Shown piece after piece: positions 110 to 13,584 of a DNA stretch of 64,000 nt. Source of the stretch: Nitrosospira sp. (GTDB lineage: Bacteria > Pseudomonadota > Gammaproteobacteria > Burkholderiales > Nitrosomonadaceae); assembly GCA_013821425.1 (NCBI GenBank), contig JACDGV010000005.1, positions 1-64,000 of the forward strand. Direction: 5' to 3'. Within the stretch, counting starts at the first letter, position 1, and each line of letters begins with the position of its first letter. A program made the position numbers and the translations under genes. Under the pieces are notes generated by a model. That model was not told where the DNA came from. It ran no database searches and worked only from the letters and a program-made list of their open reading frames with translations.

Positions 110-145
110 AAATTCCTGGCAGGTCAGTGTGTCGCTTAGCTGCTT

Positions 146-340
146 TTATATACCGTCCATCGGGTACTCGTTGCTATCCAGGCGAGCCAGGTTCTCGGCG
201 TATCTCCGGATAAAAGCCGCACAGAAATCCGCGAGATCTACGCCAGAGGTTCTCGAGCACGACTTGAGTTGAATCATGTTAGTTTGCTCTCTCAGCATGC
301 TCTGCAACAACTTAACTGCTTCTTTCTGGTGATCGGTCAT
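146..340 (-). CDS. Small hypothetical protein
   Basis: A 64-residue protein of unknown function. An upstream in-frame start at 373 exists, but the ATG at 340 is preceded by AAGGAGAG at good spacing, so 340 is chosen. The protein is soluble and mostly helical by composition, with two cysteines and no signal peptide. It sits between the IS3 end and the large terminase gene on the same strand as the element, so it may be accessory cargo or a remnant of a neighbouring element. I do not recognise a family. Confidence 0.45.
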   Translation of the reverse strand: MTDHQKEAVKLLQSMLREQTNMIQLKSCSRTSGVDLADFCAAFIRRYAENLARLDSNEYPMDGI

Positions 341-688
341 AGCTCTCCTTATTTTGGTATGTGAATCAATCATTGCCGTGGCATTCCTTTTTCACGTTCG
401 CTGCCCGTTAACTTACGGCTTGCCTTCCAAAAACCTGAGCGCGAATAACGTTCGATTTTTTAGGCCAAGCAAATGAAGGTCAGGAATTACTAAGCATGAA
501 ACAGTTCACTATACGAAGGTAGCCGCCCCTTAATTTAAATCGATTGTAGGGCTTCTGGTAGAGTCTATGGCGTTATTGCCAGCCGCGTAAAGGAAATGAA
601 TGAACCTCTACCGCTGGCCGTCGGGGTTTAGGCACTCGCCGACTAATCCGGCGCAACATCACGCCTATGAAAATTCGAAATTTCATCA
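341..688. other. Non-coding gap at the terminase end of the element
   Basis: About 350 bp with no convincing reading frame on either strand. I looked for a copy of the tRNA-Ser 3' end that would mark the far attachment site and found none. There is no clear terminator after the large terminase stop. Confidence 0.5.
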
Positions 689-2254
689 TTAAACAAAGCT
701 GATTTGCCCGTTATCGTAAACGCTGCCGCGCTCATCATCATGTTGCATGATCCGCCCCAGCGCCATCAGCGCAGCAACAATCCCATCTATCCGGTCACTT
801 GACTTGCTCTTGTCCGGCTTCATGTTCCCGGCCTCGTCCTGCTTGATGCTTACGTTGGACGCCATCCATTGAAGGACCTCATTGCCGGCGTGGTTGATTT
901 CCTGAGCGAGTACACGCCGTTCCAGTTCCTTGGTCGGTGCGCTCATGGAAGCGAACCCTTGACCAAAGCCAATCATCTCGAACCCGTCGCCGGTCAGCTG
1001 CGTTGCCAGCTGGGTCGCGTTCCAGCGATCAATGGCAATCTCCTTGATGTGATATTTCTCCGATAGCTCGTTTATTTTTGCCCGGATGATTTCATAATCG
1101 ATTACGGCGCCCTCAGTTGCGATTAAATGGCCTTGCCTAGCCCATGCCATGTACGGAACCCGATCACGCTCTGAGCGCCTTCTCAGGCCTTCCTGGGGCA
1201 CAAAGAAGAAAGGCAGCAGATGAACCTTTGTTCCAATGGGGAATGCAAGCACCAAAGCGGCAATATCGGTGGTCGTCGCCAGGTCTAAACCCGCGTAGCA
1301 GGTCTGCTTGGTCAGGTCGGGCAAGGGTTCGTTGCATTTGTCCCACGCTTCCATGGGTATCCATCGGGTATTCTGTTCCGTCCAGATGTTCAGCAATAGT
1401 CGCTTGAAGGTATTCTCATACCCGGGCAATTGCTGCGCCTTGGCACATTCCGCCGCGAAGTAATCCTCTTTAACCGAAATGCCCAGGCCGGGGTGTGCCT
1501 TGTACCAGGTGGCGGGAATAGTCCAGTCATCGTCCACACTGGCCTCATAGATCACAGGTAGGAACGCTTCATCTTTTATGGTCCCGTCGCGCACCTTTAC
1601 CGCGTAGTCGTACAGCTCGAAACAGAGCGAATGCCGGTCAAAGCCCGCCGTGGTAATCGCCACGGTAAGGGGTTGCCGCCGTGCGCCGGTTGACGTGGTG
1701 AGTACATCCCAGAGATCACGGTTTGGCAGGGCGTGAACCTCGTCTATGACAATACCGCTGGCGCTGAATCCATGCTTGGTGAACGCATCGGAACTCAGTA
1801 CCTTGTAGCTGGAACCCGTGGAAGGTATGACGATGGAACGCTTATAGGACGTTGCACGCTTGCGCAGCGGTTCGCTCGCATCGATCATGCCCTTTGCCAT
1901 ATCGAATACGATAGCGGCCTGTTCCCTGTCTGCCGCCGCGCTATAGACCTCCGCACCTGGCTCGTTGTCAGCAAACAGGAGGATGTTGGCAATACCGGCG
2001 GCAAGGGTTGATTTGCCTGCCTTGCGGGGGATCATGATAAACGCGGTGCGGTATTTGCGCGTGCCATCCTTGCGCTTCCAGCCGAATACCGGACGGATGA
2101 TCTTCTCAGCCTGCCATTCAGCCAGGTGCAACGGTGTACCCGCCCATTCGCCCTTGGTGTGGGTCAGGCACTTGGAGAAGAATTCAACCGCGCGATTCGC
2201 TGCGGCTTCGTCAAACCAATACTCAGTGGGAGAAGAATTTCGCGGTTTCGTCAT
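689..2254 (-). CDS. terL: Phage terminase large subunit (HK97 type)
   Basis: A 521-residue DNA-packaging motor. The ATPase half has a Walker A-like segment near residues 74-83 (PRKAGKST) and a Walker B with catalytic acid near 168-175 (IVIDEVHA). The nuclease half has acidic residues at about D324 (GLDLATTTD), D409 (IAIDRW) and D487/D490 (SSDRIDG), as in RNase H-like terminase nucleases. Length is normal for the family, so both activities look intact. The start overlaps the end of the small terminase gene by 32 bp, typical of phage packaging operons. It is the last gene of the head module. Confidence 0.93.
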   Translation of the reverse strand: MTKPRNSSPTEYWFDEAAANRAVEFFSKCLTHTKGEWAGTPLHLAEWQAEKIIRPVFGWKRKDGTRKYRTAFIMIPRKAGKSTLAAGIANILLFADNEPGAEVYSAAADREQAAIVFDMAKGMIDASEPLRKRATSYKRSIVIPSTGSSYKVLSSDAFTKHGFSASGIVIDEVHALPNRDLWDVLTTSTGARRQPLTVAITTAGFDRHSLCFELYDYAVKVRDGTIKDEAFLPVIYEASVDDDWTIPATWYKAHPGLGISVKEDYFAAECAKAQQLPGYENTFKRLLLNIWTEQNTRWIPMEAWDKCNEPLPDLTKQTCYAGLDLATTTDIAALVLAFPIGTKVHLLPFFFVPQEGLRRRSERDRVPYMAWARQGHLIATEGAVIDYEIIRAKINELSEKYHIKEIAIDRWNATQLATQLTGDGFEMIGFGQGFASMSAPTKELERRVLAQEINHAGNEVLQWMASNVSIKQDEAGNMKPDKSKSSDRIDGIVAALMALGRIMQHDDERGSVYDNGQISFV

Positions 2255-2618
2255 CTTCCTTTCCCTTCGGAATAATCAGCTTGGCACGTGACGCCGGGCT
2301 CAATCCCAGTTCGGCAGCGTAGCCACGTAGTTGCCCCAGCAATGCGGCTTTGAGCGGCTCACCCGCTTTCACGGTTGCCACGATCTCGCCATAGGTCGCA
2401 CAGTGCGCTTCCAGCACAGCGCCATCAACAGAGGTCAATACGCCCAGGCGGTCAAGCTCCGGCACGATCCGTTTCCACTCCGCCAGCGCGTCGCCCTTAA
2501 GCCAGTCAGGGCAAGCCGGTGCGCCGGTGGTCGGCATGGGCTCGGCATGGTTGAACGGTCGTTTACCGGGGTTTCCAGCCAGCTTCTTGAGGGCGGTGGG
2601 TGTCGGTCTATTTGCCAT
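2223..2618 (-). CDS. terS: Phage terminase small subunit, P27 family
   Basis: A 131-residue protein that recognises the packaging site and loads DNA onto the large subunit. The N-terminal signature RPTPTALKKLAGNPGKRP is characteristic of P27-family small terminases, followed by a helical segment around residues 40-110. The start codon overlaps the HNH stop in a TAATG arrangement, and its end overlaps the large terminase, so the three are translationally coupled. In satellites the small terminase decides whether satellite or helper DNA is packaged, so this gene is likely to set packaging specificity. Confidence 0.88.
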   Translation of the reverse strand: MANRPTPTALKKLAGNPGKRPFNHAEPMPTTGAPACPDWLKGDALAEWKRIVPELDRLGVLTSVDGAVLEAHCATYGEIVATVKAGEPLKAALLGQLRGYAAELGLSPASRAKLIIPKGKEDDETAKFFSH

Positions 2619-2971
2619 TATTTTGGATCTCCAATTGCGGACGCGTGCGTGAGTCTATGGGCGCGGATCGGGGGCGCTGCGTTCTGGTGATTTCTCGTTT
2701 TGCGCGAGTGGTGGCTATGACACATTCCAGCCAAGTTACTAAGGTCGTTATTGCTTGCATCGTTATCGATATGATCCACATCCAGGCTCGCTCTAATACG
2801 TCCTTCACGTTGGCACTCACGGCATAGCGGCTGCTCACTGAGTACCAGTCTGCGAAGGCGCGCCCAGGCTGCTCCATTAAGCGCCAACGTCCGGTTGGGG
2901 GTCAGTACCTTTTTGCGTTCCGGCCTGAGTCTGGGAGTGTTGGGTCTGTGCTGCTTGATTGCGTTCGGCAT
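2618..2971 (-). CDS. HNH endonuclease of the packaging module
   Basis: A 117-residue HNH nuclease. A CRECQREG pair of cysteines near residues 51-54 precedes the core DVDHIDND, then an Asn/His-containing segment ending in CHSHHSRKT. HNH proteins next to HK97-type terminases stimulate DNA cleavage at the packaging site. The predicted start lies inside the portal gene, giving a 95-bp out-of-frame overlap. The arginine- and proline-rich N-terminus resembles that of related phage HNH proteins, which supports this long start. The stop is joined to the small terminase start by a 1-nt overlap. Confidence 0.85.
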   Translation of the reverse strand: MPNAIKQHRPNTPRLRPERKKVLTPNRTLALNGAAWARLRRLVLSEQPLCRECQREGRIRASLDVDHIDNDASNNDLSNLAGMCHSHHSRKTRNHQNAAPPIRAHRLTHASAIGDPK

Positions 2972-4100
2972 CGGTTAGCTTGGGTAGGTTTTCATACTTG
3001 CGCACCTCATCAATGGTCAGCCATCCATCAGCTATTCCTTTACTGTAGAAGTCGGCACGGTTGCTGCTATCGCCACGCAATAAGCCTTCAACATTGTGTT
3101 CGGCAAAGTAGACTTGCCTGGCGGCAGGGCTGAGCAATGATGAGCTGATCGCCTGTTCCCACATGGTCATGTGACGGCGCAGGGTGTGGACAACGAATAC
3201 CCGGTTCATCTCGACGCTGTTGGAATAGTTGCCATGGCGCAGGTCGCCAATGATGGTGGGAGGCACCCGGAACAATCGGGCTATCTCTTCAACGGAGAAT
3301 TGCCTTGCTTCTAGCCATTGCGCATCTTCCATACTCATGGATGCGGTGCTGAAGTCCACGCCCTCTTCAAGGATGGCAGTCTTGCCAGCATTGGCGCCGC
3401 CGGCATGTTGGCTGGCCCAGCTTTCCCCAATCCTGGCGCGTTGATCCGGGCTCAGCTTACTGGGGAACTTCAATATTCCTGACAGTCGGGTGCCATTGGT
3501 AAAGGTTGAATTGCCATGATCCCGTTCGGCCAATGCCAGTTGCACCGTCTCGCGGCTTGCGGTAATCGGTGCCACGCCCACTAGTCCATTATCTGAACGG
3601 TGGCGCAGGTGGAAGACCTCATCTTGCAACAGACGCCGCACCCGGCCTTTTGTGTCGGTGACGTCATAAGCCAGCCGCCCATTGTCCAGTTGCAGGGTCG
3701 CTACACGATCCCCCATCAAAGGAATTAGGCTGATTACCTGGCCGTAATATCCCCGCTTGATTTCGGCGTGCGCATTGCCGCGTAACAAGCACATGGCCTG
3801 CATCATTTCGCGGAACTCCAAGGCGGTCTGTAGTTCGTTCGGTTGCTCGTGCAATATCCGGTATAGGGGGTGGTCTGCCGCACGCTCCCTGCCCTCGTCA
3901 TCGGTGCGCTTGTAGAGAATCAGGGGTAAGGACGCAATTGTTTCGCTGATCGCTGAGACGCACGCGTAGACGGTTGACAGGCTTTCCGCCCTGCCGGGTG
4001 TGACGCTGCCGCCGCGTAGCAATACAGCGCCGTTCCAGGAGGGGTTAACCGTGCGTCGCTCGAAACCGATAAAGTTGAGTGCGCGATTGAGTAGGCTCAT
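2877..4100 (-). CDS. Phage portal protein, HK97 family
   Basis: A 407-residue portal, the dodecameric ring at the head vertex through which DNA enters and to which a tail joins. It opens with MSLLNRALNFIGFERR and has family features such as LSTVYACVSAISETIASLPL near residues 40-60 and a C-terminal segment rich in Gln and Thr. Length is normal. It overlaps the protease gene upstream by 4 bp and the HNH gene downstream by 95 bp. No connector or tail gene follows, so the tail must come from elsewhere if particles are made. Confidence 0.92.
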   Translation of the reverse strand: MSLLNRALNFIGFERRTVNPSWNGAVLLRGGSVTPGRAESLSTVYACVSAISETIASLPLILYKRTDDEGRERAADHPLYRILHEQPNELQTALEFREMMQAMCLLRGNAHAEIKRGYYGQVISLIPLMGDRVATLQLDNGRLAYDVTDTKGRVRRLLQDEVFHLRHRSDNGLVGVAPITASRETVQLALAERDHGNSTFTNGTRLSGILKFPSKLSPDQRARIGESWASQHAGGANAGKTAILEEGVDFSTASMSMEDAQWLEARQFSVEEIARLFRVPPTIIGDLRHGNYSNSVEMNRVFVVHTLRRHMTMWEQAISSSLLSPAARQVYFAEHNVEGLLRGDSSNRADFYSKGIADGWLTIDEVRKYENLPKLTDAERNQAAQTQHSQTQAGTQKGTDPQPDVGA

Positions 4101-4672
4101 TCGTAAGCCTCAAGGGATAGCGCGTAATGGCCGGTATAGTTGAAGAATTCCTTCTTGCGCCAATCAGCCATGCCACGTTTGGCGACACTGGTATCCAGGT
4201 AAGCCGGATTACTAGTAATGGTGATTTCTTGCAGGTCTACAGTAACCAGGTCCCGCATTAGTTGACCCGAACGCATCTCCCATACATCGCCACCTTCCGG
4301 AACGCGAAAGCCGAATGAACATCCGGATATGTCGCCACGCTCAACCAGCACGCCCAGGTCACGCGCATAGCTGGTATCAGGCAGCGACAATTCAAAGTGG
4401 AGTCCCTTGCCATCTTCTTGCAGGGAAAGGGTGCGCGAGCCCACACGCCCCAGAAGGCGTTGCGGATCATGTTCAAGCAGTGCGCGGATATTGTCGGGGC
4501 TGGTGAGTGAGCGTTTGAATGCGCCGGGTATGATGCGCTCCACAAAGCCGCCCAAGTCCTGACTGTGGGAGTTGTAGATCGCGGCATACCCGGCCAGCTT
4601 GCCGGGGGAGACTGCGCGCAGATCGCCACCTGATCTAATCTCGAAAGCATTCATGCTCGCAGCGCCGCTCAT
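4097..4672 (-). CDS. Prohead protease, HK97 family (peptidase U35)
   Basis: A 191-residue serine protease that trims the capsid scaffold domain during head maturation. The family pattern is visible: GYAAIYN near residues 28-34, the FVERIIPGAF block, a conserved histidine in LLEHDPQRLLGR, and a serine in ISGCSFGFRV. The ATG used shares its A with the capsid stop (TGATG); a second methionine at codon 7 is an alternative start. It is coupled to the portal gene by a 4-bp overlap. Confidence 0.9.
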   Translation of the reverse strand: MSGAASMNAFEIRSGGDLRAVSPGKLAGYAAIYNSHSQDLGGFVERIIPGAFKRSLTSPDNIRALLEHDPQRLLGRVGSRTLSLQEDGKGLHFELSLPDTSYARDLGVLVERGDISGCSFGFRVPEGGDVWEMRSGQLMRDLVTVDLQEITITSNPAYLDTSVAKRGMADWRKKEFFNYTGHYALSLEAYE

Positions 4673-5898
4673 CAGCTTACAACGATATCGTTTGCCAGCA
4701 CGAAGGCTTCAGGGTGGCGCAATGCTATGTCGCAGGTTGCCATGGCCCGCACCAGCACCCCGCCGCGAGCGTAGGCGGTGGAATCGAACGGGTTGACCAG
4801 AATGTCCAATTCACTCCAAATCCCCAGCAGTACTTGGCTGAAATCACCCAGAATCAGCTGTCCGTTGGTGGTCGCCAACGGAACTTGTTTGGTGCTGTGA
4901 ACTGGCAGGTCAGCCATGCGCCCGTTTTCGCTAAGGTACGCAGCGCCAGCGGTAGCGGATTTCAAGGTGACGCGTAGTTTCTTCATCACGCCGGGTGATG
5001 TCAGCCAGGCGCCGGCGGTGCTGTTTGCCAGCTCGCTCTTTTCCAGCATGGAAGCAATACCCGCCCAATCCAGTGTGGCAAGGGAGGAAGTCTGAATGCC
5101 GACGGTGGGGATAATACCGGTGGGCTCATTCGTGCCGCCGCCTTTGATGAGCGCGCTATCGAGTGCAGCGGCCAAGGCAAATGCCATATCGTCCCTGAGT
5201 AGCTGTTCAATGTCAGGGGAGGATTGCTGGATCAGTTGCCGGCTCATTTCGGACAGAGCCCCAACGTGTTTGGGGCTTAGGGTTTTGCTGCCGAAGGTTT
5301 GATCCGAGGCGGTGAGTGCGCCATTTTCCGCTACCCAGCCGGACGATACGCCGGTGCCATAGGCGGGGATGGATACATCGCCTTGCAGTCCGCTCAGCAC
5401 ACGCACGCCCATGGCACGCATCAGCAGCTTGTTCCTGAACGGTTCGATAAACTGATCCGCCCGGTGATCGACAGGGACGATTTGCCCAGCGGTTGATGTG
5501 GTATTGACACGCTTCTCCAGGGCAGACAAAGGAACAAATGCGCCGCCAGCTTTGCGCCCGGTGCGTCTCTCCACTTCTTTCGAGTATTCTGCTTCAGCGC
5601 CCGAAAGTGCCCGGCCTTCCATGCCCGCCCGGATCACGCTCATCAGGCTGACGTTGCTTTCCAGCGCGTTAAATGATTTGTCGCCGTCTACCGGGGTGCC
5701 GCTCATGCGACGTTCCGCATCGGCCAGGAATGAGGCGCGGGACTCGTTCGCTTCCAGTTCAGTGATCTTTGATTTCAAACCTTCGAACCTCGCTGTTTCG
5801 TCGGCAGACAGGTTACGCTTCTCGGCTTGCGCTTTTTCTACAATACCGCGCATCTCTGTGACTGCTAACGCGCGTTGTTCTTTCAGTTCATGAATCAT
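4672..5898 (-). CDS. Major capsid protein, HK97 fold
   Basis: A 408-residue capsid subunit. Residues 1 to about 70 are a charged coiled-coil delta domain of the kind removed by the prohead protease, and the rest matches the HK97 shell fold (TTSTAGQIVPVDH, then FIEPFRNKLLMRAMGV, and PTGIIP in the axial part). The start has GGAG at good spacing and lies 50 bp downstream of a strong promoter, so capsid is the first gene of the head operon, as suits the protein needed in most copies. Confidence 0.93.
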   Translation of the reverse strand: MIHELKEQRALAVTEMRGIVEKAQAEKRNLSADETARFEGLKSKITELEANESRASFLADAERRMSGTPVDGDKSFNALESNVSLMSVIRAGMEGRALSGAEAEYSKEVERRTGRKAGGAFVPLSALEKRVNTTSTAGQIVPVDHRADQFIEPFRNKLLMRAMGVRVLSGLQGDVSIPAYGTGVSSGWVAENGALTASDQTFGSKTLSPKHVGALSEMSRQLIQQSSPDIEQLLRDDMAFALAAALDSALIKGGGTNEPTGIIPTVGIQTSSLATLDWAGIASMLEKSELANSTAGAWLTSPGVMKKLRVTLKSATAGAAYLSENGRMADLPVHSTKQVPLATTNGQLILGDFSQVLLGIWSELDILVNPFDSTAYARGGVLVRAMATCDIALRHPEAFVLANDIVVS

Positions 5899-5948
5899 TT
5901 AATGCTCCAAAAATACTGCAAGTTATTGATAAGGGACTATAAAAATAG

Positions 5949-5976
5949 GTTATACACCATTTCAATAATATGTCAA
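5949..5976 (-). promoter_or_regulatory. Sigma-70-type promoter of the capsid operon
   Basis: On the minus strand there is a perfect -35 box TTGACA (5976-5971), a 16-bp spacer, and a -10 box TATAAC (5954-5949). This lies just upstream of the capsid start at 5898. The surrounding DNA is clearly more A+T rich than the genes around it. Confidence 0.6.
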
Positions 5977-6067
5977 TATCTTTCTTTTAATGATACGTCA
6001 TGATACTTTATGAGACTGCTAATAGCGGAAGGAGTATCACGCTGCCCGAAGAGCAGTTCCTCCGGGG

Positions 6068-6169
6068 AGTGGTAACCGTTACCACTTGATACTCAGAAAG
6101 TGGAATACCATCGTGTGATTCCACTTTTGTGTTTCCAACTTTCTCTAATCCGGCAAGATTGCCGGATTA
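6068..6169. promoter_or_regulatory. Three stacked inverted repeats upstream of the capsid promoter
   Basis: Within about 100 bp lie three separate perfect inverted repeats: AGTGGTAAC-C-GTTACCACT at 6068-6086, AAAGTGGAAT with an 11-nt loop and ATTCCACTTT at 6097-6127, and TAATCCGGCAA-GA-TTGCCGGATTA at 6146-6169. Two share a GTGG/CCAC core. They sit between the regulatory genes and the head operon. They could be operators, terminators insulating the two modules, or parts of a replication origin. The sequence does not decide between these. Confidence 0.6.
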
Positions 6170-6258
6170 CGGATTTCCGTTTTTCTAACTCATTGTTTTT
6201 AGGGGATGTTTTTGAAACAGTGGGAGAAATCCCATTGTTTTCCTTCCGCTGCAGACGT

Positions 6259-6681
6259 CTACGCTGCATTTCTGCTATTAGGCAAGGCATAGACATTACC
6301 GCTGGGCTTTAACGTTGCCTCGGTGCTGTATTGTTCGATTACTTCAAAGATGGCCACGCCGTCATAGTGAGCGCGGGGAATCTCCAAATCGAAGGTAGCG
6401 ACGCCTCTAAGTCCAATTTTCACCAGCACCAGATCGCTTTCAGAGTCCTCCACTACTACCGCATATTTCAAGTTCGGATTACTTGCCAGCATTTCCATTA
6501 CGCGCTGCCTGGGGGAATCTTTCCTGAGTAGCTCACCGATCTCGGCCTTATGCTCGCGAAGAGACGGTGCCCACGCTTCAACTATGCCCGCCTCTCCCAG
6601 TACCTTGATGCTGCCGTTATCGGATAACTTAAAAGACAATCCTTCCGCCACGGCCTGATCCATGATTACAGTCGGGGTCAT
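6259..6681 (-). CDS. Hypothetical protein with TubC_N-like N-terminus
   Basis: A 140-residue protein of unknown role. Residues 10-55 (GLSFKLSDNGSIKVLG... ending in LREHKAEIGELLRK) resemble the short TubC_N-like fold often found at the N-terminus of phage and plasmid replication-associated proteins. The C-terminal half is a small alpha/beta region with no motif I know. It overlaps the DUF1376 gene by 4 bp (ATGA), so the two are co-translated, and it is the last gene before the regulatory gap that precedes the capsid operon. Confidence 0.6.
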   Translation of the reverse strand: MTPTVIMDQAVAEGLSFKLSDNGSIKVLGEAGIVEAWAPSLREHKAEIGELLRKDSPRQRVMEMLASNPNLKYAVVVEDSESDLVLVKIGLRGVATFDLEIPRAHYDGVAIFEVIEQYSTEATLKPSGNVYALPNSRNAA

Positions 6682-7241
6682 AGCTCCACCTCAATCACCC
6701 TGGGACCAGAGACTTGCTTATTGCTGGCAGCGTCAAATTCTTCACATTCTTCTAACCCAGAATCAACAACAAGTTCTTTATCTTGGATAAGGGAATTTGA
6801 TTTAAGAGTATTTGATTTAATAGTATTTAAAGGACCTATGGGTTGACCTATGGGTTGACCTATGGGTTGACTCTCATCAGTTAAGCCCTTGTTATATCTT
6901 CGGTTAGCTCCTTTTATCCCACCCTCAGACTGTTTCTTTATGCGAGCTAAATGTTTCTTCCAATGGTCTTCTAGCTGAGGGGAAATAAGTTCGCCATTCA
7001 CCTCTTTAAAGAAAGAAAGCACCCGTTCAGTGAGCCCGGCTTTGACATCTTCAACTGACCATCCAAGCCATTGGGCTAAGGCGACGGGGTCAGCAGGAAC
7101 CGAGTTGTTCGACCAGCATTCCAACAAGATAGATATCCATAATGCTCTCTCCAATGGCGTCATAAGGCGGTATCGCTTATCGGCGATCAGATTGCTAGCA
7201 AACATTGGGAACCACGGCAAGTTGTCACGGTTTTGGTCCAT
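6678..7241 (-). CDS. DUF1376 family protein (YdaU-like, replication-module gene)
   Basis: A 187-residue protein whose first 100 residues match the DUF1376 / YdaU pattern common in prophage replication modules (LPWFPMFASNLIADKRYRLMT, then RALWISILLECW). After a basic stretch it has a low-complexity tract in which QPIG occurs three times; at DNA level this is a 12-bp unit repeated at about 6836-6873. The C-terminal part is Asn/Ser rich and probably flexible. Function is unproven; position suggests DNA replication or its control. Base composition is more A+T rich than in the head genes. Confidence 0.7.
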   Translation of the reverse strand: MDQNRDNLPWFPMFASNLIADKRYRLMTPLERALWISILLECWSNNSVPADPVALAQWLGWSVEDVKAGLTERVLSFFKEVNGELISPQLEDHWKKHLARIKKQSEGGIKGANRRYNKGLTDESQPIGQPIGQPIGPLNTIKSNTLKSNSLIQDKELVVDSGLEECEEFDAASNKQVSGPRVIEVEL

Positions 7242-7270
7242 TGCACGCCTCCCGGATGGTCATAAACTGC

Positions 7271-7360
7271 TTGCTGTATCCGGGCAGTGGTCTATAATTC
7301 GAGTTGGAGTAGAAACTTGTTTTGAAAATCGCCTCGGTTGCTGCCGGGGCATTTTCTTTT
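7271..7360 (+). ncRNA. Candidate small RNA with own promoter and terminator
   Basis: On the plus strand, opposite to all genes of the element, a TTGCTG box (7271-7276), 16-bp spacer and consensus TATAAT (7293-7298) are followed about 33 bp later by a terminator hairpin: GCCTCGG (7331-7337), loop TTGCTG, CCGGGGC (7344-7350), then a T-rich tract to 7360. The predicted transcript is about 55 nt, from near 7305. The hairpin segment reads IASVAAGAF in one frame, which I recall from regulatory regions of other phage-like elements near C4-type antisense RNAs. That link is from memory and unverified. Confidence 0.45.
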
Positions 7361-7370
7361 AAGGGCTCTG

Positions 7371-7586
7371 TCATTCTGCCCCCTCTTTCGATTCAAGCCA
7401 TTCCTTGACCTCTGCCACTTTCCAAGCCGTGATTCGTTCAGATAATTTGTGTGGAGCTGGAAATTCCCCGGTTTTTACCTTTCTCCATAAGGTAGCTGAA
7501 GAGAATGGCACGATGTCCGGTATAAGTTGCCGCTGGCGAATGTGTTGAGACTGCGGCCACTTGAAGCATTGGGATTTATTTTTCAT
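7371..7586 (-). CDS. AlpA-family DNA-binding regulator
   Basis: A 71-residue protein with an AlpA/excisionase-type winged helix: RQLIPDIVPFSSATLWRKVKTGEFP, then LSERITAWKVAEVKEWLES. In P4-like and PICI satellites AlpA proteins act as the switch that turns on excision and lytic genes. The N-terminus is a little longer than usual. It lies upstream of the DUF1376 and head genes and downstream of a gap with three direct repeats that could be its own or another regulator's binding sites. Confidence 0.85.
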   Translation of the reverse strand: MKNKSQCFKWPQSQHIRQRQLIPDIVPFSSATLWRKVKTGEFPAPHKLSERITAWKVAEVKEWLESKEGAE

Positions 7587-7655
7587 TTCGTTTTCCTATG
7601 AAGTTATATGATGCTGTGCGAAGCTTAGCAAACGCAGCAAAGACCCTGAACGCAG

Positions 7656-7722
7656 GCAACAGCGCTAGCCAGCAATAACGCGGGTTTCGGGCTAATTTAC
7701 GCAACAGCGCAACGCAACAGCG
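7656..7722. repeat. Three direct copies of GCAACAGCG upstream of the AlpA gene
   Basis: GCAACAGCG occurs at 7656-7664, 7701-7709 and 7714-7722, all in the same orientation. The first two extend to GCAACAGCGC. A looser relative (ACGCAGCAAAG) lies near 7632-7642. The 136-bp gap between 7587 and 7722 should also contain the AlpA promoter. Such repeats are typical of operators or replication iterons. Confidence 0.55.
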
Positions 7723-8397
7723 TTAAAATTTCTTCCCGTCTTTTATTCCCCTAACCCCAGTGGAGGGCTGGTAAGAGTTCCTAATTTTTCTGCTAAAATC
7801 TTCTTTCGCTTGTTTCAGTAATGCCCCGATACGCTGCCTTGTTACCCCATGCTTTTCAGCAAGCGCCTGGTGCGTTTGCCCCGGTATAAGGCTGTCTTCC
7901 CGTAACGACTTCAATTGCCCCTTATCCCATTTCTTCTTGTTACTTCTGATGCTCTTATCACTACCCGATGCATCTTCTGGCTCAGCGCGGAGGCCGTCCA
8001 AATTCACGGGAATTCCCTTGTCGTGAAACCATCTCTCTGCATCATCTAAGGAAACAAGCCAGTCGAATGTAGCAAGCGGCATTTCGTCCCCATCCTCTCC
8101 AAATAGTCCATCAGACATCATTCCCAAATATTCGGAATATGGGATACGCGTTATCGGATGCTTTGGGTCCAAATTCCCATTCGCAATATCGGAACAAATC
8201 AACTTTATATAGTGATCAGCCATTTCTTCGGGATTCCTTTGCTCTTTCGTCCAAAGCTGCGACGGAACAATTAAGGCGCATTGCGCTAATGTAAGATGCC
8301 CGCTTTCTTCCAAGGCGGTGAAATCACCTATTTTTTCCAACAAAAATGGACTGGATTCCTCAACGTATTTCTCTGTTTCATCACCCAGCTTCGCCAT
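7723..8397 (-). CDS. Hypothetical protein with C-terminal helix-turn-helix
   Basis: A 224-residue protein of unknown family. Residues 1-130 are acidic with several aromatic residues. A lysine-rich linker follows, then a likely helix-turn-helix near residues 173-195 (THQALAEKHGVTRQRIGALLKQA). This suggests a DNA-binding protein, perhaps the repressor or replication initiator of the element, but nothing proves it. The gene follows two small genes in the same direction and precedes the repeat-containing gap upstream of AlpA. Confidence 0.6.
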   Translation of the reverse strand: MAKLGDETEKYVEESSPFLLEKIGDFTALEESGHLTLAQCALIVPSQLWTKEQRNPEEMADHYIKLICSDIANGNLDPKHPITRIPYSEYLGMMSDGLFGEDGDEMPLATFDWLVSLDDAERWFHDKGIPVNLDGLRAEPEDASGSDKSIRSNKKKWDKGQLKSLREDSLIPGQTHQALAEKHGVTRQRIGALLKQAKEDFSRKIRNSYQPSTGVRGIKDGKKF

Positions 8398-8495
8398 AGA
8401 TCACCCCTTCGAAGTGCCCCTTCAATGAGATGCCACCCCAGGCGGTGAAGGTTTCCGCTTTTCGCCCCGTCGGGCTAGGGATGGCTTGACCAGTA

Positions 8496-8741
8496 TTAAT
8501 TGCCCAATCTTGCTTTCAATTCTTCAGTAGTTTCCATCGGATCGCCGACTGCGCCCATGATTAGATTATTCAAATACCTCAATCGGTGCATTGCCCCTTT
8601 GATCGCAATCAAATCGCATTGATCGAGATGATCAACCGCCACTCCTACCAATGCCGCTATTGAAGAAATTTCCCAGGTTGCCTCTAACACAAGCTGACCG
8701 CGCTCATCATCTAGCATCAGTGTTATTTTTTCTTGTTTCAT
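8496..8741 (-). CDS. Small hypothetical protein of the early module
   Basis: An 81-residue protein without a recognised domain. The ATG shares a base with the stop of the gene upstream (TAATG), so the two are coupled. Composition is balanced and largely helical. Similar small coupled genes lie just inside the integrase of many integrated elements, and their roles are mostly unknown. Confidence 0.55.
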   Translation of the reverse strand: MKQEKITLMLDDERGQLVLEATWEISSIAALVGVAVDHLDQCDLIAIKGAMHRLRYLNNLIMGAVGDPMETTEELKARLGN

Positions 8742-8995
8742 TATGCCGCCTCTTTTTTAGCTGCAAGGGTATCCATGTCGGACTTGCATTCTTGTAACAA
8801 TCTCTCGGCCTTTTTGATGCGGTTAATTAAATCGTGCATCACAAAGAAAAACCCCGATAACTCGCCGGCTTCGAGATTTACATCAACGTTAAGGGACATA
8901 TCCTTAACGAACTCGGCGACGTGACCTGCTTCCATGAGCAAGTCCTGTGCTTCAGTGAATTTTCTGGAAACGAGTGTAGAATTGGCGTTAGCCAT
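8741..8995 (-). CDS. Small hypothetical protein of the early module
   Basis: An 84-residue, mostly helical protein. A longer frame begins at 9013, but the ATG at 8995 has GGAGG with an 8-nt spacer, so it is chosen. Residues 45-84 contain heptad-like spacing and may form a coiled coil. It is coupled to the next gene by a 1-nt overlap. Function is not recognisable. Confidence 0.55.
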   Translation of the reverse strand: MANANSTLVSRKFTEAQDLLMEAGHVAEFVKDMSLNVDVNLEAGELSGFFFVMHDLINRIKKAERLLQECKSDMDTLAAKKEAA

Positions 8996-9083
8996 GATGC
9001 GTACCTCCCTCATAGGTTGCGTTGTGGTTAGGGGTGTCTGGTGTTAGTCGCACCTTTCACCCCGCTTTATTGCCTGAAGTCCG

Positions 9084-10298
9084 TCAGGCCACGGTATTGC
9101 TCTTTTTCAGCGGCACAACTTCCCCGCCTTGTTTCTTGTTACAGAATTCTGCCCAATCCGCCATCATTCTGGTGCGTTTCGTGAATAAATCTCCACGCCG
9201 GTAAGCCGCCTCTACCTTATTACCGATGGAGTGCGCCAAAGCCATCTCTGCCACGTCCCGCGGGTATGCGGTAGACTCTGAAGCCCAATCCCTGAAGGTT
9301 GAGCGAAAACCATGGACGGTCAGATCATCGCGTCCCATCCTGCGCAGCACGGCAGACAGGCTCATATCAGATAGCGGCCTGCCTTCCGTTCGGCCAGGGA
9401 AAATAAACTTCGTCGACTGGTCCATTTGATTGAGTACGGCAATGGCCGCATCGGAAAGAGGCACTCGATGCTCCTTTGCGGCTTTCATGCGTTCGCCGGG
9501 GATGATCCATACCCGAGAATGAAGGTCAATCTCTTCCCACGCGGCCAAACGAACCTCGCCAGAGCGGCAAGCGGTCAGAATGGCGTATTCCAGGGCCCTG
9601 GCTGCGATGCCGGCCTGTTGCCTAAGGGTTAGCATCAGCTCAGCCATTTCAGCGTAACCTAGGGCCGCGTGGTGCGTTATTCTTTTCACCCTGCTTATGT
9701 TCGGCAGGAGATGGTCCAGTTGGCCCTTCCATCGAGCTGGATTGTCGCCTTCCCGGTATCCCCGCACTGTCGCCCAATCAAGTATTGATTCAATCCGGCC
9801 ACGCAAGCGGCCGGCCGTCTCTGCTTTCGTTGTCCAGATCGGCTCTAGAACTCTCATCACCAGCCCGACGGTTACCTGTTCGACCGGCAGCTTTCCGATG
9901 ACCGGGCCGCAATACGTCGCAATGGTGTTTGTCCACTGGTCAACATGCTTGGGGTTTTTCCAGCCACTACGATGGGAGGCAATATACTGATCGGCACATT
10001 GCTGAAACGTGAGGTTCTTTGCTCTGGCTCTTTCAGCATCACGAGCGCTGATAGGATTAATGCCGGCGTATCTTTTTTTTCGGGCTTTTAATGTGGCTTC
10101 TCGCGCTTCCTCGAGGGAAACTTCTGGATAAGGACCGAGTCCCATCCAATGTTCTTTGCCGGCAAGAGTAAAGCGATAAATCCAATGTTTGGACCTGCCT
10201 TCAGTCACGCGGATATACAAACCAGCTCCATCTCCGTAGACGCCTGGCTTGCTCATCTTGGAAACTGCCATCGCTGAAAATTTGTGCGCTCTGCTCAT
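9084..10298 (-). CDS. int: Tyrosine recombinase / integrase (P4 type)
   Basis: A 404-residue integrase with the DUF4102 arm-binding domain at the N-terminus (GVYGDGAGLYIRVTEG, near 19-34), a core-binding domain at about 95-190, and a catalytic domain with R245 (TACRSGEVR), H329 and R332 (HGFRSTFRDW), H356 and the nucleophile Y366 (EAAYRRGD). All key residues are present, so the enzyme should be active. Such integrases use tRNA 3' ends as attachment sites. The gene reads away from tRNA-Ser(UGA), whose 3' end is 153 bp upstream. Confidence 0.95.
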   Translation of the reverse strand: MSRAHKFSAMAVSKMSKPGVYGDGAGLYIRVTEGRSKHWIYRFTLAGKEHWMGLGPYPEVSLEEAREATLKARKKRYAGINPISARDAERARAKNLTFQQCADQYIASHRSGWKNPKHVDQWTNTIATYCGPVIGKLPVEQVTVGLVMRVLEPIWTTKAETAGRLRGRIESILDWATVRGYREGDNPARWKGQLDHLLPNISRVKRITHHAALGYAEMAELMLTLRQQAGIAARALEYAILTACRSGEVRLAAWEEIDLHSRVWIIPGERMKAAKEHRVPLSDAAIAVLNQMDQSTKFIFPGRTEGRPLSDMSLSAVLRRMGRDDLTVHGFRSTFRDWASESTAYPRDVAEMALAHSIGNKVEAAYRRGDLFTKRTRMMADWAEFCNKKQGGEVVPLKKSNTVA

Positions 10299-10451
10299 TT
10301 TATTACTGTAGAGATTGTATACGTGTCACTCTACGTGATAATTCGAGATTGTGCAATATGTATTGATACGAGGCGAGAGGATGAAACTAGGCTAGAGTGG
10401 CTTGTATAAAGGGTTTGAGAGGGGATGTGAGATGGTGCGAGACTATAACTC

Positions 10452-10541
10452 TGGCGGAGGCGGTGAGATTCGAACTCACGGTAGAGTTACCCCTACGGCA
10501 GTTTTCAAGACTGCTGCCTTAAACCGCTCGGCCACGCCTCC
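10452..10541 (-). tRNA. tRNA-Ser (anticodon UGA)
   Basis: A 90-nt serine tRNA. The acceptor stem GGAGGCG at the 5' end pairs with CGCCTCC near the 3' end, CCA is encoded, the anticodon loop is CTTGAAA, and there is a long variable arm as expected for tRNA-Ser. The T-loop GTTCGAATC is intact. The 3' end faces the integrase, so this gene is the likely integration site and its 3' part may be supplied by the element. Confidence 0.96.
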
Positions 10542-10674
10542 CCATTTTCGCCAGGAATCATACCTTTTTGAGCCCAATTTTGCCAGCAAGACCCCTGCGG
10601 TAATGTTGCTATTGCAACTTTACACAAACATGAGTAGTCTTACGACTGTATAGTTCTACAACTTGGGAGACGTT

Positions 10675-11370
10675 ATGCAACCTGAACTTCGATATCCTGG
10701 CTCAACCGCGCAATCTGGCATTGCGGCTGTTCGAAACAAAGTCCTTCGCAATACCTACTGGATGCTTGGCTTGACCATGATTCCGACGATGTTCGGAGCA
10801 ATGATCGGCATGAGTACCAATTTTTCATTTCTTGCGCAGGCGCCCATTATGGGGCCGCTGGTTATGCTGGCCGTGATGATTGGCCTGCTGTTCGGGGTGA
10901 GCGCTACTCGCAATAGTGTCATGGGCATCGCGTTGCTATTCCTATTTACGTTTGTTGCTGGCTGGTGGTTAGGGCCGATGCTGCAACATGCGCTTAATTT
11001 CAGGAACGGTGCTCAATTAGTGGGAACCGCCGCGGCCGGAACCGGAATCATTTTCTTCACCTTGGCCGGAATAGCGACAGCGACCAAAAAGGATTTTGGC
11101 TTCATGCGCAACTTCCTGTTTGTGGGCCTCGTGATGCTGATCATCGCTTCCATCGCCAACCTGTTTTTCGCCATTCCGGCAGCGTCGCTTGCCATCTCGG
11201 CGGTTGCGGTCCTGCTTTTTTCCGGCTTCATTCTGTTTGACGTAAGCCGTATCGTTAACGGTGGGGAAACAAACTACGTAATGGCAACGATGGGCATTTA
11301 TCTTAGTCTGTATAACCTCTTCATCAGCCTGCTGCACCTGTTGTTGGCTTTCGCGGGCGAAAGGGACTGA
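10675..11370 (+). CDS. Bax inhibitor-1 / YccA-family membrane protein
   Basis: A 231-residue integral membrane protein with seven predicted hydrophobic segments and the BI-1 family ending, where acidic residues lie in the last helix region (LFDVSRIVNGGETNYV, then LYNLFISLLHLL). Bacterial members such as E. coli YccA modulate the FtsH protease; others act as pH-sensitive calcium leaks. The ATG at 10675 follows GGGAGA; an upstream TTG at 10663 is less likely. Followed by a strong terminator. Confidence 0.88.
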   Translation: MQPELRYPGSTAQSGIAAVRNKVLRNTYWMLGLTMIPTMFGAMIGMSTNFSFLAQAPIMGPLVMLAVMIGLLFGVSATRNSVMGIALLFLFTFVAGWWLGPMLQHALNFRNGAQLVGTAAAGTGIIFFTLAGIATATKKDFGFMRNFLFVGLVMLIIASIANLFFAIPAASLAISAVAVLLFSGFILFDVSRIVNGGETNYVMATMGIYLSLYNLFISLLHLLLAFAGERD

Positions 11371-11450: not shown

Positions 11451-12762
11451 TCAACTGGCTTTCTCAAACACGGCAATCGATTCGACATGTGCCGTGTGGG
11501 GAAACATATTGACCACGCCTGCCGCTGTTAGCGAGTAGCCGTGCTGGTGCACCAGCACACTCGCGTCCCGGGCTAGCGTAGCTGGATTGCACGAAACATA
11601 GACAATGCGCCAGGGAGAGCGTCCCTTATCTCCAAGGGCAGTAAGCGCAGCTATCGCGCCATTCCGCGGAGGGTCAATCAGCAATTTTTTCAAAATCCCC
11701 TTGCGCTTGTATCCAGGCTTCATCTACATTGAACAGGTCGGTTTCGATGAATTTGGTACGATGCGCGAGGCGGTTGCGTTCTGAATTCTCCCTCGCGCGT
11801 CGCACCATCGCCGCGCTGCCTTCATAACCTGCTACCTGTGCCCCCCGTCGCGCAATCGGCAAGGCAAAATTTCCCAGTCCGCAAAACAAGTCTGCAACAC
11901 GCTCACCTGGCTGCGGATCGAGAAGATTCAACGCTTGCCGTACCAGTATCCGGTTCATGGAGGGATTAACCTGGGTAAACTCAGTTGGATGAAAGGGCAT
12001 GACGACATGAAATTCAGGAAGGGTGTAGTTTAATTCCGGCGCATCCCGCGGATAGAACGCATATGCCGTGGCCGGACCGCCAGGCTGCAGAAAAAACTGG
12101 ATGCTATGCCGATCGGCAAATGCCTTAAGGATTGCTTCGTCGTTGAGGGTAAGTGGATCGAGAATGCGCAAAACCAGCACATCCACGTCTTCGCCGAGCG
12201 AGACTTCGATCTGCGGAAGCCGCTGACGGATGGACAGGCTGCCCACCAGTTTACGCAGTGGCGCGATGAGCAGGGAAACGCGCAGCGGCACGATTTCGCA
12301 ACTCTGCATGTCGGCGACGAAACTGCTGCGCTTTTCGTGAAAACCTACCAATGCCGCTTTTTTACTGGCGAGGTAGCGCACGGAAAACCGCGCGCGATAC
12401 CGGTAACCCCAAGCCGGACCGTACACAGCGGGCAATATTAATTCCGGCTGTACCCTGCCGATATGCTTCAGGTTATCTTCCAGAATGCGCTGCTTTGCCG
12501 CCACCTGCGCACGAGCGTCGACATGTTGCAACGTGCATCCACCACAGATACCGAAGTGGCGGCATCGTGGCGCCACGCGTGCAAATCCCGGCTGCAGAAT
12601 CTGATCGACCTGGGCCAGTTCAAACTTTTGTTTTTTGCGATAAGGGTTAAAGGTAACCTGTTCACCAGGAAGCGCACCTTCGATGAAGATGACTTTGCCA
12701 TCGGCGTGGGCAACCCCACGGCCTTCCTGATCAAGGGACTCGATGATAACGGGAACGGTCAT
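11451..12762 (-). pseudogene. rlmD: 23S rRNA (uracil-5)-methyltransferase RlmD/RumA, frame broken
   Basis: The first frame (12762 to about 11674) gives 362 residues with a TRAM domain, the iron-sulfur cysteines (CRHFGICGGC, then QSCEIV) and the SAM site DLFCGLGNFALP. The second frame (ending 11451) continues with LLIDPPRNG and the catalytic-cysteine motif [12 protein letters not shown]. The frames join at a run of six A (minus strand, 11690-11685). With five A the protein reads on perfectly as EKLLIDPPR. As given, translation ends soon after, with the catalytic cysteine missing. It may be a true frameshift mutation, a phase-variable tract or a sequencing error. Confidence 0.85.
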
Positions 12763-12810
12763 ATCCGTTTTGGGGTGACGCCGGAATGGCGGAGGAACCG
12801 CTACAGGCTC

Positions 12811-13584
12811 CTACAGCCAATGCCCGAGAAATTCCTGCCAGTGAGGTTCGGGGGACTTGCTCAAGGTGAAACGCACCAGATCATATTCGCGCTGGTACTG
12901 TTCATTGTCGAAAACACCTCGCATGAGCTGAAAACGCAGGAACACGAGATAGGTATTCACCACATCGGTTTCGCAGTAGTTACGAATCGCCGCAACTTCG
13001 CCTTTCTGGAATGCGTTCCAGACTTGGGAACCGTCCATTCCCAGCTTCCCGGGAAAACCCATCAGCTTCGCCAATTCGTCCAGCGGGACGTTTGCGCGGG
13101 GCTGATACAACGCGAGGATATCCATCAAGTCAAGATGTCGGGTATGGTAGCGGCTAAGGTAGTTGTTCCACTTGAATTCGCGGTCATCCTCACCCATTTC
13201 CCAATAACGACGGGCATGCAGGCCATGAATCAGACTGCGGTAATGGAGCACGGGCAGATCGAAGCCGCCGCCATTCCATGAAACCAGTTGCGGGCTGTAT
13301 TTCTCTATCCCTTCGAAAAACCGGCGGATGAGTTCCGCTTCAGGGTCTAGCGGGTTTCCCAGCGACCAAACACGCAGATCGTTCTTATCACGCAGCACAC
13401 ATGAGATTGCCACGACCCTCTGCACGTGCAATGACAGAAAATCGTTCCCCACGGCCTGTCGGCGTGACTGAAACGCCATTTCGGCAATGTCCGCGGGCGC
13501 AAGCTCCGGGCCAAGCCCGCAAATTTTGCGCACTCCCTCTGTATCGGGAACGGTCTCGATATCGAAAACCAGTATGGGGGTCAC
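12811..13584 (-). CDS. PolB-like 3'-5' exonuclease
   Basis: A 257-residue DEDD-type exonuclease of the group described as related to the exonuclease domain of DNA polymerase B. Motif I is FDIETVPD near residues 7-14, motif II is VSWNGGGFDLPVL in the middle, and motif III is YCETDVVNTYLVF near residue 208. It stands alone without a polymerase domain, as usual for this family, and its substrate is unknown. It lies 48 bp upstream of rlmD on the same strand. Confidence 0.85.
   Translation of the reverse strand: MTPILVFDIETVPDTEGVRKICGLGPELAPADIAEMAFQSRRQAVGNDFLSLHVQRVVAISCVLRDKNDLRVWSLGNPLDPEAELIRRFFEGIEKYSPQLVSWNGGGFDLPVLHYRSLIHGLHARRYWEMGEDDREFKWNNYLSRYHTRHLDLMDILALYQPRANVPLDELAKLMGFPGKLGMDGSQVWNAFQKGEVAAIRNYCETDVVNTYLVFLRFQLMRGVFDNEQYQREYDLVRFTLSKSPEPHWQEFLGHWL

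Follow-up and report, generated by a model that had tools for sequence, protein, structure and literature searches.

In a stretch of 64,000 nucleotides of a Nitrosospira sp. genome (bases 1-64000 of contig C32, hereafter the window), we have found next to a tRNA-Ser gene an integrated element that, to judge from its sequence, is very probably a satellite similar to the capsid-forming phage-inducible chromosomal islands (cf-PICIs), carrying head and packaging genes, with neither tail nor connector genes found. The contig has 113,512 bases and the genome 3.14 Mb in 66 contigs. This reading is carried by what we observed: the gene set and its order, the homology to other elements, the precise ends of its relatives and the absence of connector matches. 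The integrase and the AlpA-type regulator would move the element in and out of tRNA-Ser, while the capsid, protease and portal would build a head of its own. HNH, TerS and TerL (the small and large terminase subunits) would cut the element's own DNA and pump it in, probably at a cohesive end (cos) site located at the 3' end of hnh, and the tails, the parts of the neck and lysis would come from a helper siphovirus. That a helper induces the element and provides neck proteins, and that the element packages its own DNA and borrows tails, is what we infer.

Gene content of the element

The element is bounded by the tRNA-Ser at the right and the end of an insertion sequence (IS) at the left, and all its genes are on the minus strand (Table 1). 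Reading leftward from the tRNA, we found the integrase, two small genes, an int-alpA RNA, a gene coding for 224 amino acids (aa), the AlpA-like regulator, a DUF1376-like gene and a 140-aa gene, followed by capsid, S78 protease, portal, HNH, TerS and TerL. Past TerL there are a pseudoknot RNA, a conserved box, a 75-aa open reading frame (ORF) and the IS end. The main ORFs are all intact. A first-pass annotation of this DNA had described this set as lying on a single strand with stop-start overlaps, and the profile matches (weak in the case of DUF1376) and the coordinates agree with it; portal and HNH genes actually overlap by 95 bases. The integrase was 84% identical to that of the related locus L102 (L numbers are our own locus labels), which also sits at a tRNA-Ser tga. 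A promoter and terminator scan gave results no richer than shuffles.

We scanned 15 selected ORFs of the window against PHROG and Pfam, with the small ORFs covered only in part. Neither tail nor lysis genes appeared among these ORFs of the element, whose left side is cut off, in agreement with the first-pass annotation regarding tails. As to the connectors, no match to head-tail adaptor or head closure was found in any frame of window bases 127-10700 (ORFs of at least 30 aa) with hidden Markov models (HMMs) derived from relatives. The adaptor model Ad1 matches 32 of 97 sources and the closure model Hc1 25 of them, five and three of which had been used to build the HMMs. Neither matches any of the 15 closest loci, of which nine are informative since L091-L096 end at or before TerL. 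Among 19 whole relatives the same HMMs detected at least one connector in 11 and neither in 8, so the absence of connectors is recurrent and not unique to the window. The first-pass annotation had proposed a possible minimal variant, partly on this ground: the lack of connectors stands, as a state common to those eight relatives. We consider the element connectorless as far as the present sequence goes, with divergent connectors as a possibility.

Regarding replication, the only hint within the element is the primosomal PHROG match of the DUF1376-like protein (Table 1). Many relatives have a match to a protein of 160 aa, which in turn shows a weak match to a DnaD-like PHROG (0.0012). The element may therefore have a replication-type gene in the DUF1376-like protein, which qualifies the earlier statement that there was no primase: this protein is still the single candidate.

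Table 1. Features of the element (window coordinates) and of a cassette found in related loci
Feature	Position	Strand	Evidence
tRNA-Ser (tga), integration site	10452..10541	-	ARAGORN
Tyrosine integrase, 404 aa	9084..10298	-	PF22022 1.7e-31, PF00589 3.5e-15
90-aa protein, no family	8741..9013	-	no Pfam/PHROG match; homologues in sister elements
81-aa protein, no family	8496..8741	-	no Pfam/PHROG match
int-alpA RNA (RF02996)	8418..8485	-	cmscan 69.3 bits, E 4.2e-13, gathering score 35.8
224-aa protein, no family	7723..8397	-	no Pfam/PHROG/PADLOC match
AlpA-like regulator	7371..7586	-	PF05930 8.6e-9
DUF1376-like, possible primosomal protein	6678..7241	-	phrog_9327 1.3e-9; PF07120 0.0044, under cut-off
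140-aa protein, no family, paired with DUF1376-like gene	6259..6681	-	no Pfam/PHROG/PADLOC match; homologues in sister satellites
Major capsid protein (HK97 type)	4672..5898	-	PF05065 7e-41; phrog_617 7.3e-68
Prohead protease S78	4097..4672	-	PF04586 5.3e-44
Portal protein	2877..4100	-	PF04860 2.1e-107
HNH endonuclease	2618..2971	-	PF13392 6.3e-7
Candidate cos motif at hnh 3' end	2653..2700	-	matrix score 20.1, reached by 0/60 shuffles
Terminase small subunit TerS	2223..2618	-	PF05119 1.3e-15
Terminase large subunit TerL	689..2254	-	PF20441 3.2e-46, PF03354 4e-28
Pseudoknot RNA	608..664	-	model R1 56.6 bits; compensatory changes; no Rfam 15 match
50-base box common to sister satellites near far end	518..567	-	best matches 84-94% identity over 45-52 bases
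75-aa ORF, no clear match	146..373	-
IS3-like insertion sequence end, at contig end	1..126	.
DUF6950 + N-terminal-third J + aspartic-protease-like cassette	L100 8604-10518; L102 7796-9662; L131 13653-15694; also L239-L243, L246

Relatives and known satellites

The relatives of the element show how far it is likely to extend. In 19 of the 32 elements tested, in beta- and gammaproteobacteria, the 3' end of the tRNA is repeated exactly at a distance of 9,815-11,610 bases, over 43-57 bases in 13 of them and 13-19 bases in 6. These whole relatives end shortly past TerL, for which a match was found in 17 of the 19, and they support the satellite proposed by the first-pass annotation over the arm of a prophage. 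L134 and L139, both whole and outside Nitrosospira, have capsid and portal and no TerL match. Another relative, L098, is a circle of 11,075 bases (125-base terminal repeat, 99%) with a phage-type attachment site (attP), the 14-base core of which is identical to the 3' end of the tRNA-Leu in L100 and L131. It codes for capsid, protease, portal and a tape-measure-like protein, with no terminase.

A search with the window capsid gave 36 viral-contig loci, mostly short contigs, and an alignment-based search gave 58 loci in genomes of Nitrosospira, Noviherbaspirillum, Massilia, Pseudomonas, Halomonadaceae, Xanthomonas and Acinetobacter, with more distant relatives in alphaproteobacteria and elsewhere. 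Within the host family the capsid had a match in 6 of 120 genomes, all of the same genus and two of them only distant. In 50,697 phage records there were 259 matches, all below 60% identity, the closest being at about 35% among the best 30 of the 259. When 43 capsids were placed in a tree, that of the window fell within a set of 25 rows from satellite elements (support 99/100), and five phage rows stood separate from it (99/98).

In order to place the element among known satellites, we used as reference a locus of Escherichia coli EDL933 (NZ_CP008957, 1680329-1694760) which, in part from its gene content, we take to be EcCIEDL933, the cf-PICI prototype. Its order is integrase, helix-turn-helix regulator, DUF927, single-stranded DNA-binding protein (SSB), capsid, protease, portal, closure, connector, HNH, TerS and TerL. 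Integrase, AlpA, capsid, S78 protease, portal, HNH, TerS (P27 type), TerL and their order are shared with the window. The identities of the eight homologues were 38% for TerL (over 500 aa), 35% for the portal, 44% for the protease, 30% for HNH, 26% for TerS, 30% for AlpA, 20% for the integrase and 36% for the capsid, the last over 66 aa only. In contrast, the window lacks the closure and head-tail connector that EDL933 carries after its portal and ahead of HNH, the DUF927 protein and SSB are unmatched, and the window capsid is on another branch of the tree. The adaptor follows the portal directly in EDL933 and TerL directly in the relatives that have it. An element named EcCIEDL933 appears in the literature (PMC11389934). 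The published definition of cf-PICIs includes a capsid, a head maturation protease, a portal and head-tail connectors of their own (PMC10690885). The window has the integrase and AlpA, its own capsid, protease and portal and its own HNH, TerS and TerL, but not the connectors that form part of that definition, so we call the element cf-PICI-like and do not file it as a member. Elements of this class would also be expected to measure about 10-15 kb between direct repeats, to have a primase-type replication gene and to be free of tail and lysis genes; on these points the window shows one end at tRNA-Ser, a primosomal PHROG match and no tail or lysis gene among the 15 scanned ORFs.

Classical PICIs and P4-like satellites are not known to have capsid or portal genes of their own, and the window element, which has both, does not belong with them. 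Closer to it are the elements L127-L178 of Pseudomonas aeruginosa PA7, Vreelandella, Acinetobacter, Noviherbaspirillum and others, of 10-11 kb, that share capsid family, gene order and tRNA sites with the window and differ in the Ad1 and/or Hc1 genes past TerL of the 11 whole ones already mentioned. The Streptomyces satellites MulchRoom and MiniFlayer also have their own head and packaging genes and no replicase, although they have a head-to-tail adapter, virulent helpers and no significant homology to cf-PICIs (PMC10690885). In the same way, the cf-PISP of Vibrio crassostreae contains head, HNH and terminase genes and no tail, but it is episomal and has adapter and closure genes (PMC13230959).

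Completeness of the element and other explanations

The window begins at base 1 of C32, so the sequence to the left of the IS is not directly readable. The IS3 insertion that the first-pass annotation placed there corresponds indeed to an IS3-like sequence, present as an end at the contig end (Table 1). The genome has seven left ends and eight closely matching right ends of this IS, all at contig ends, and judging by eye from the 4-base flanks four copies pair (C48-C22, C1-C42, C35-C53 and C36-C3). The conserved chromosomal genes expected leftward sit on contig C33, the other end of which stops at another IS-like ORF. Joining the window to another contig through the flank repeats was tried and dropped, given that the window copy is unpaired and C33 ends at that ORF.

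By analogy with the 14-base cores of L098 and L240, the core of the attachment site (att) is likely the final 14 bases of the tRNA-Ser (10452-10465). The distance from the 50-base box to att is 364 bases in L243, 477 in L240 and 612 in L098, so the far att of the window would be expected in a range from about base 154 to 94 bases outside the contig, beyond its first base. This is about where the IS sits, from which the element would be nearly complete. By this comparison it is probably nearly whole, its final few hundred bases or fewer having been lost to the IS or lying beyond it.

Several observations weigh against our reading as a satellite. The 4-base flank of the window IS copy pairs by eye with no remaining end, so this IS took part in a rearrangement that may have taken away part of the element. 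A second copy of the tRNA end, searched as a 24-mer and as a 14-mer, is absent from the genome, in which the sole exact 14-mer is the tRNA itself, and no repeat of at least 13 bases was found in any of the eight Nitrosospira-type elements tested; the window is one of the 13 among 32 tested elements without end repeat, as are the other seven. The genome also has no helper of the prophage kind identified below, with only a 44-aa remnant of its J protein. Besides, the capsid tree has several long branches and the clustering of phage labels on it was not significant (46 of 500 shuffles as low), and the absence of tails in the relatives was judged from their size and a small BLAST set.

With the missing far att, the IS at the edge, the lack of connector genes and the lack of such a helper in the genome, it is possible, if rather doubtful, that we are looking at a decayed satellite that lost its connectors and far att and is now immobile. 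The intact main ORFs argue against this, and since 8 of the 19 whole relatives are also without a connector match, their absence alone does not indicate decay. Much less likely is an ordinary prophage of a siphovirus, of which we would see the arm for head and packaging, the remainder having been lost or moved by the IS. A left end cut by an IS copy without matching flank repeat would fit, as would a TerL up to 49.7% identical to phage TerL, but the whole relatives stop soon after TerL and the window order capsid-protease-portal-HNH-TerS-TerL contrasts with HNH-TerS-TerL-portal-protease-capsid in two Nitrosospira prophages. Moreover, the genome contains one match to the TerL Pfam family of the window and one capsid match, with no other capsid and only the mentioned J remnant, and by eye no phage gene for head or tail could be recognised in the initial 6 kb of the four partner contigs left without a match. 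Tail, lysis and replication genes to the left of the IS, which the first-pass annotation singled out as the sign of a normal prophage, were not found in this look, an indirect one as the contig ends there. Head genes kept by the host for defective particles or a use similar to gene transfer would explain heads without tails, but this is extremely improbable given the integrase and AlpA at a tRNA, the patchy presence in the family and the sister element L098, a circle with attP.

In this genus the tRNA-Ser tga serves as a hotspot of integration: L018, L021 and L022 have other integrases there (about 30% identical), and L239 a satellite with a truncated J gene (see below). In genome G001 the tRNA-Ser near yccA (L024 1322-1361) aligns over its 5' part only.

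Exchanged late modules and a conserved RNA

Comparing the probable satellite with its sister elements gave the more surprising results, swapped modules and an RNA, that lie partly outside bases 110-10451. L101, which is of the terminase type like the window, is 78-80% identical in DNA to L098, L099, L100 and L102 over about 3.15 kb, from capsid to portal, and the similarity to all four breaks at L101 base 9654, immediately before hnh. In the same way, the window and L102 diverge at window base 2977, six bases ahead of the hnh start. Tape-measure-like genes follow the breakpoint in L097, L098 and L099, and in L100, L102 and L131 it is followed by coding sequence for a DUF6950 protein, for the N-terminal 350 aa of a protein resembling J and for an aspartic-protease-like protein; L099, L100 and L131 were assigned in part through their similarity to the others. 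The hosts of this truncated-J cassette (Table 1) are small integrase-AlpA elements of Nitrosospira, among them L131 of the laboratory strain N. multiformis Nl7, and the full J was found in two prophages only. L127 and L128 continue with type IIG and type I restriction genes, their far ends being outside view, so these genes may lie outside the elements. TerL had no match in L097, L098, L099, L100, L102, L127, L128 and L131, the last of which retains a TerS of the helper type. Past TerL, L101 has a weak BrnT/BrnA or CopG-like toxin-antitoxin pair (12129-12847).

A cos-like motif described by a matrix of 13 sites in seven loci without TerL is found close to the breakpoint. Its best match was located 68-208 bases past the portal stop in all eight close relatives of the hnh/terminase type, including the window, and was reached by none of 60 shuffles in each. 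The motif is kept with or without hnh and terminase, in up to three copies (L127 9766, 9850 and 9934). Among distant relatives it appears in L105, L106, L129 and L130, weakly in L104 (1 of 60 shuffles) and in L243, and it is missing in L103, L171, L240 and L242. A pattern search of the 22 other genomes of the genus gave a hit in G014 only. The motif adjoins hnh and terS, which suggests cos, with window bases 2653-2700 as the candidate site. As a general helper signal it was rejected, since two prophages had no significant match (24 and 29 of 60 shuffles as high).

Just past TerL there is an RNA in which an outer stem is combined with the stem of a pseudoknot. Across an alignment of 21 sequences 105 of 105 cells of the pseudoknot pair, with changes on both sides at four of the five pairs, and in the 14 long-form rows 66 of 70 cells of the outer stem pair, the window having the short form. 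None of 2000 shuffles reached either count and slid controls paired far less, in rows that were picked by a pattern fitting the motif, which favours pairing. The model matched 34 of 97 sources at E <1e-4 (21 of the 34 had built it) and 12 of 369 genomes of the class at 0.001, most of them near the limit. Rfam 15 gave no match at this position (E 0.5), a control search of phages with this RNA region was negative, and at E 0.05 the model had no match in L101, L127, L128, L131, the prophages or EDL933. The RNA is also found at L272 9831, L240 9357-9413 and others, directly after the capsid gene in the truncated-J elements and in two of five places checked from the class search. A restriction to this capsid family was rejected, the contexts varying among 13 viral contigs with the pattern; a restriction of the 50-base box to satellites was rejected too, as its 17-base core lies outside the element in L131 and is also in L241 and the prophage L245. 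On contig C45 of the same genome (31768-31822; L271 9769) there is a weaker second match beside a tRNA-Arg, with no recognisable satellite gene, possibly the remnant of a satellite.

Two of 23 genomes of the genus contain a prophage that codes for HNH, TerS, TerL, portal, ClpP-like protease, capsid, tape measure, DUF6950 and J in its full length (1,055 or 1,086 aa). Satellite and prophage proteins are 57-58% identical in TerS, 64-68% in DUF6950 and 64-66% in the truncated J, and this resemblance makes the prophage type a likely candidate helper of the elements with truncated J or helper-type TerS, the window having no direct link to it. Six further truncated-J elements (L239-L243 and L246) have no portal or TerL match, and five of them have a different capsid gene. 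In three of the six (L240, L242 and L243) att repeats are 9,993, 10,140 and 10,333 bases apart. A satellite that blocks tail assembly through J is known, Tai (PMC11364771), so interference with J is as possible as tail capture.

Putting these observations together, one could imagine, as a speculative and on the whole unlikely scheme, that the late end of Nitrosospira satellites is an exchangeable cassette running from the hnh start by the cos-like motif to near the pseudoknot RNA and the box. Siblings without terminase would be filled by a window-type terminase in the same cell, a short tape measure or a truncated J, as pieces of a tail, would claim or spoil the helper tails, and the RNA would act in head assembly or late control. 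If true, one satellite would be feeding another. In the sister elements a single module has been exchanged by nature with the head kept constant, by which the choice of tail or terminase becomes testable, and the RNA, itself new and in need of explanation, can serve as a marker of such elements. The connectorless form raises the question of how a borrowed tail joins the head. Our literature search found no paper on phage satellites in Nitrosospira, and a work on viruses of soil nitrifiers, in its available sections, has no mention of satellites or PICIs (PMC11849493). At the strength given above, the element extends the satellites that make their own heads to the ammonia-oxidising bacteria.

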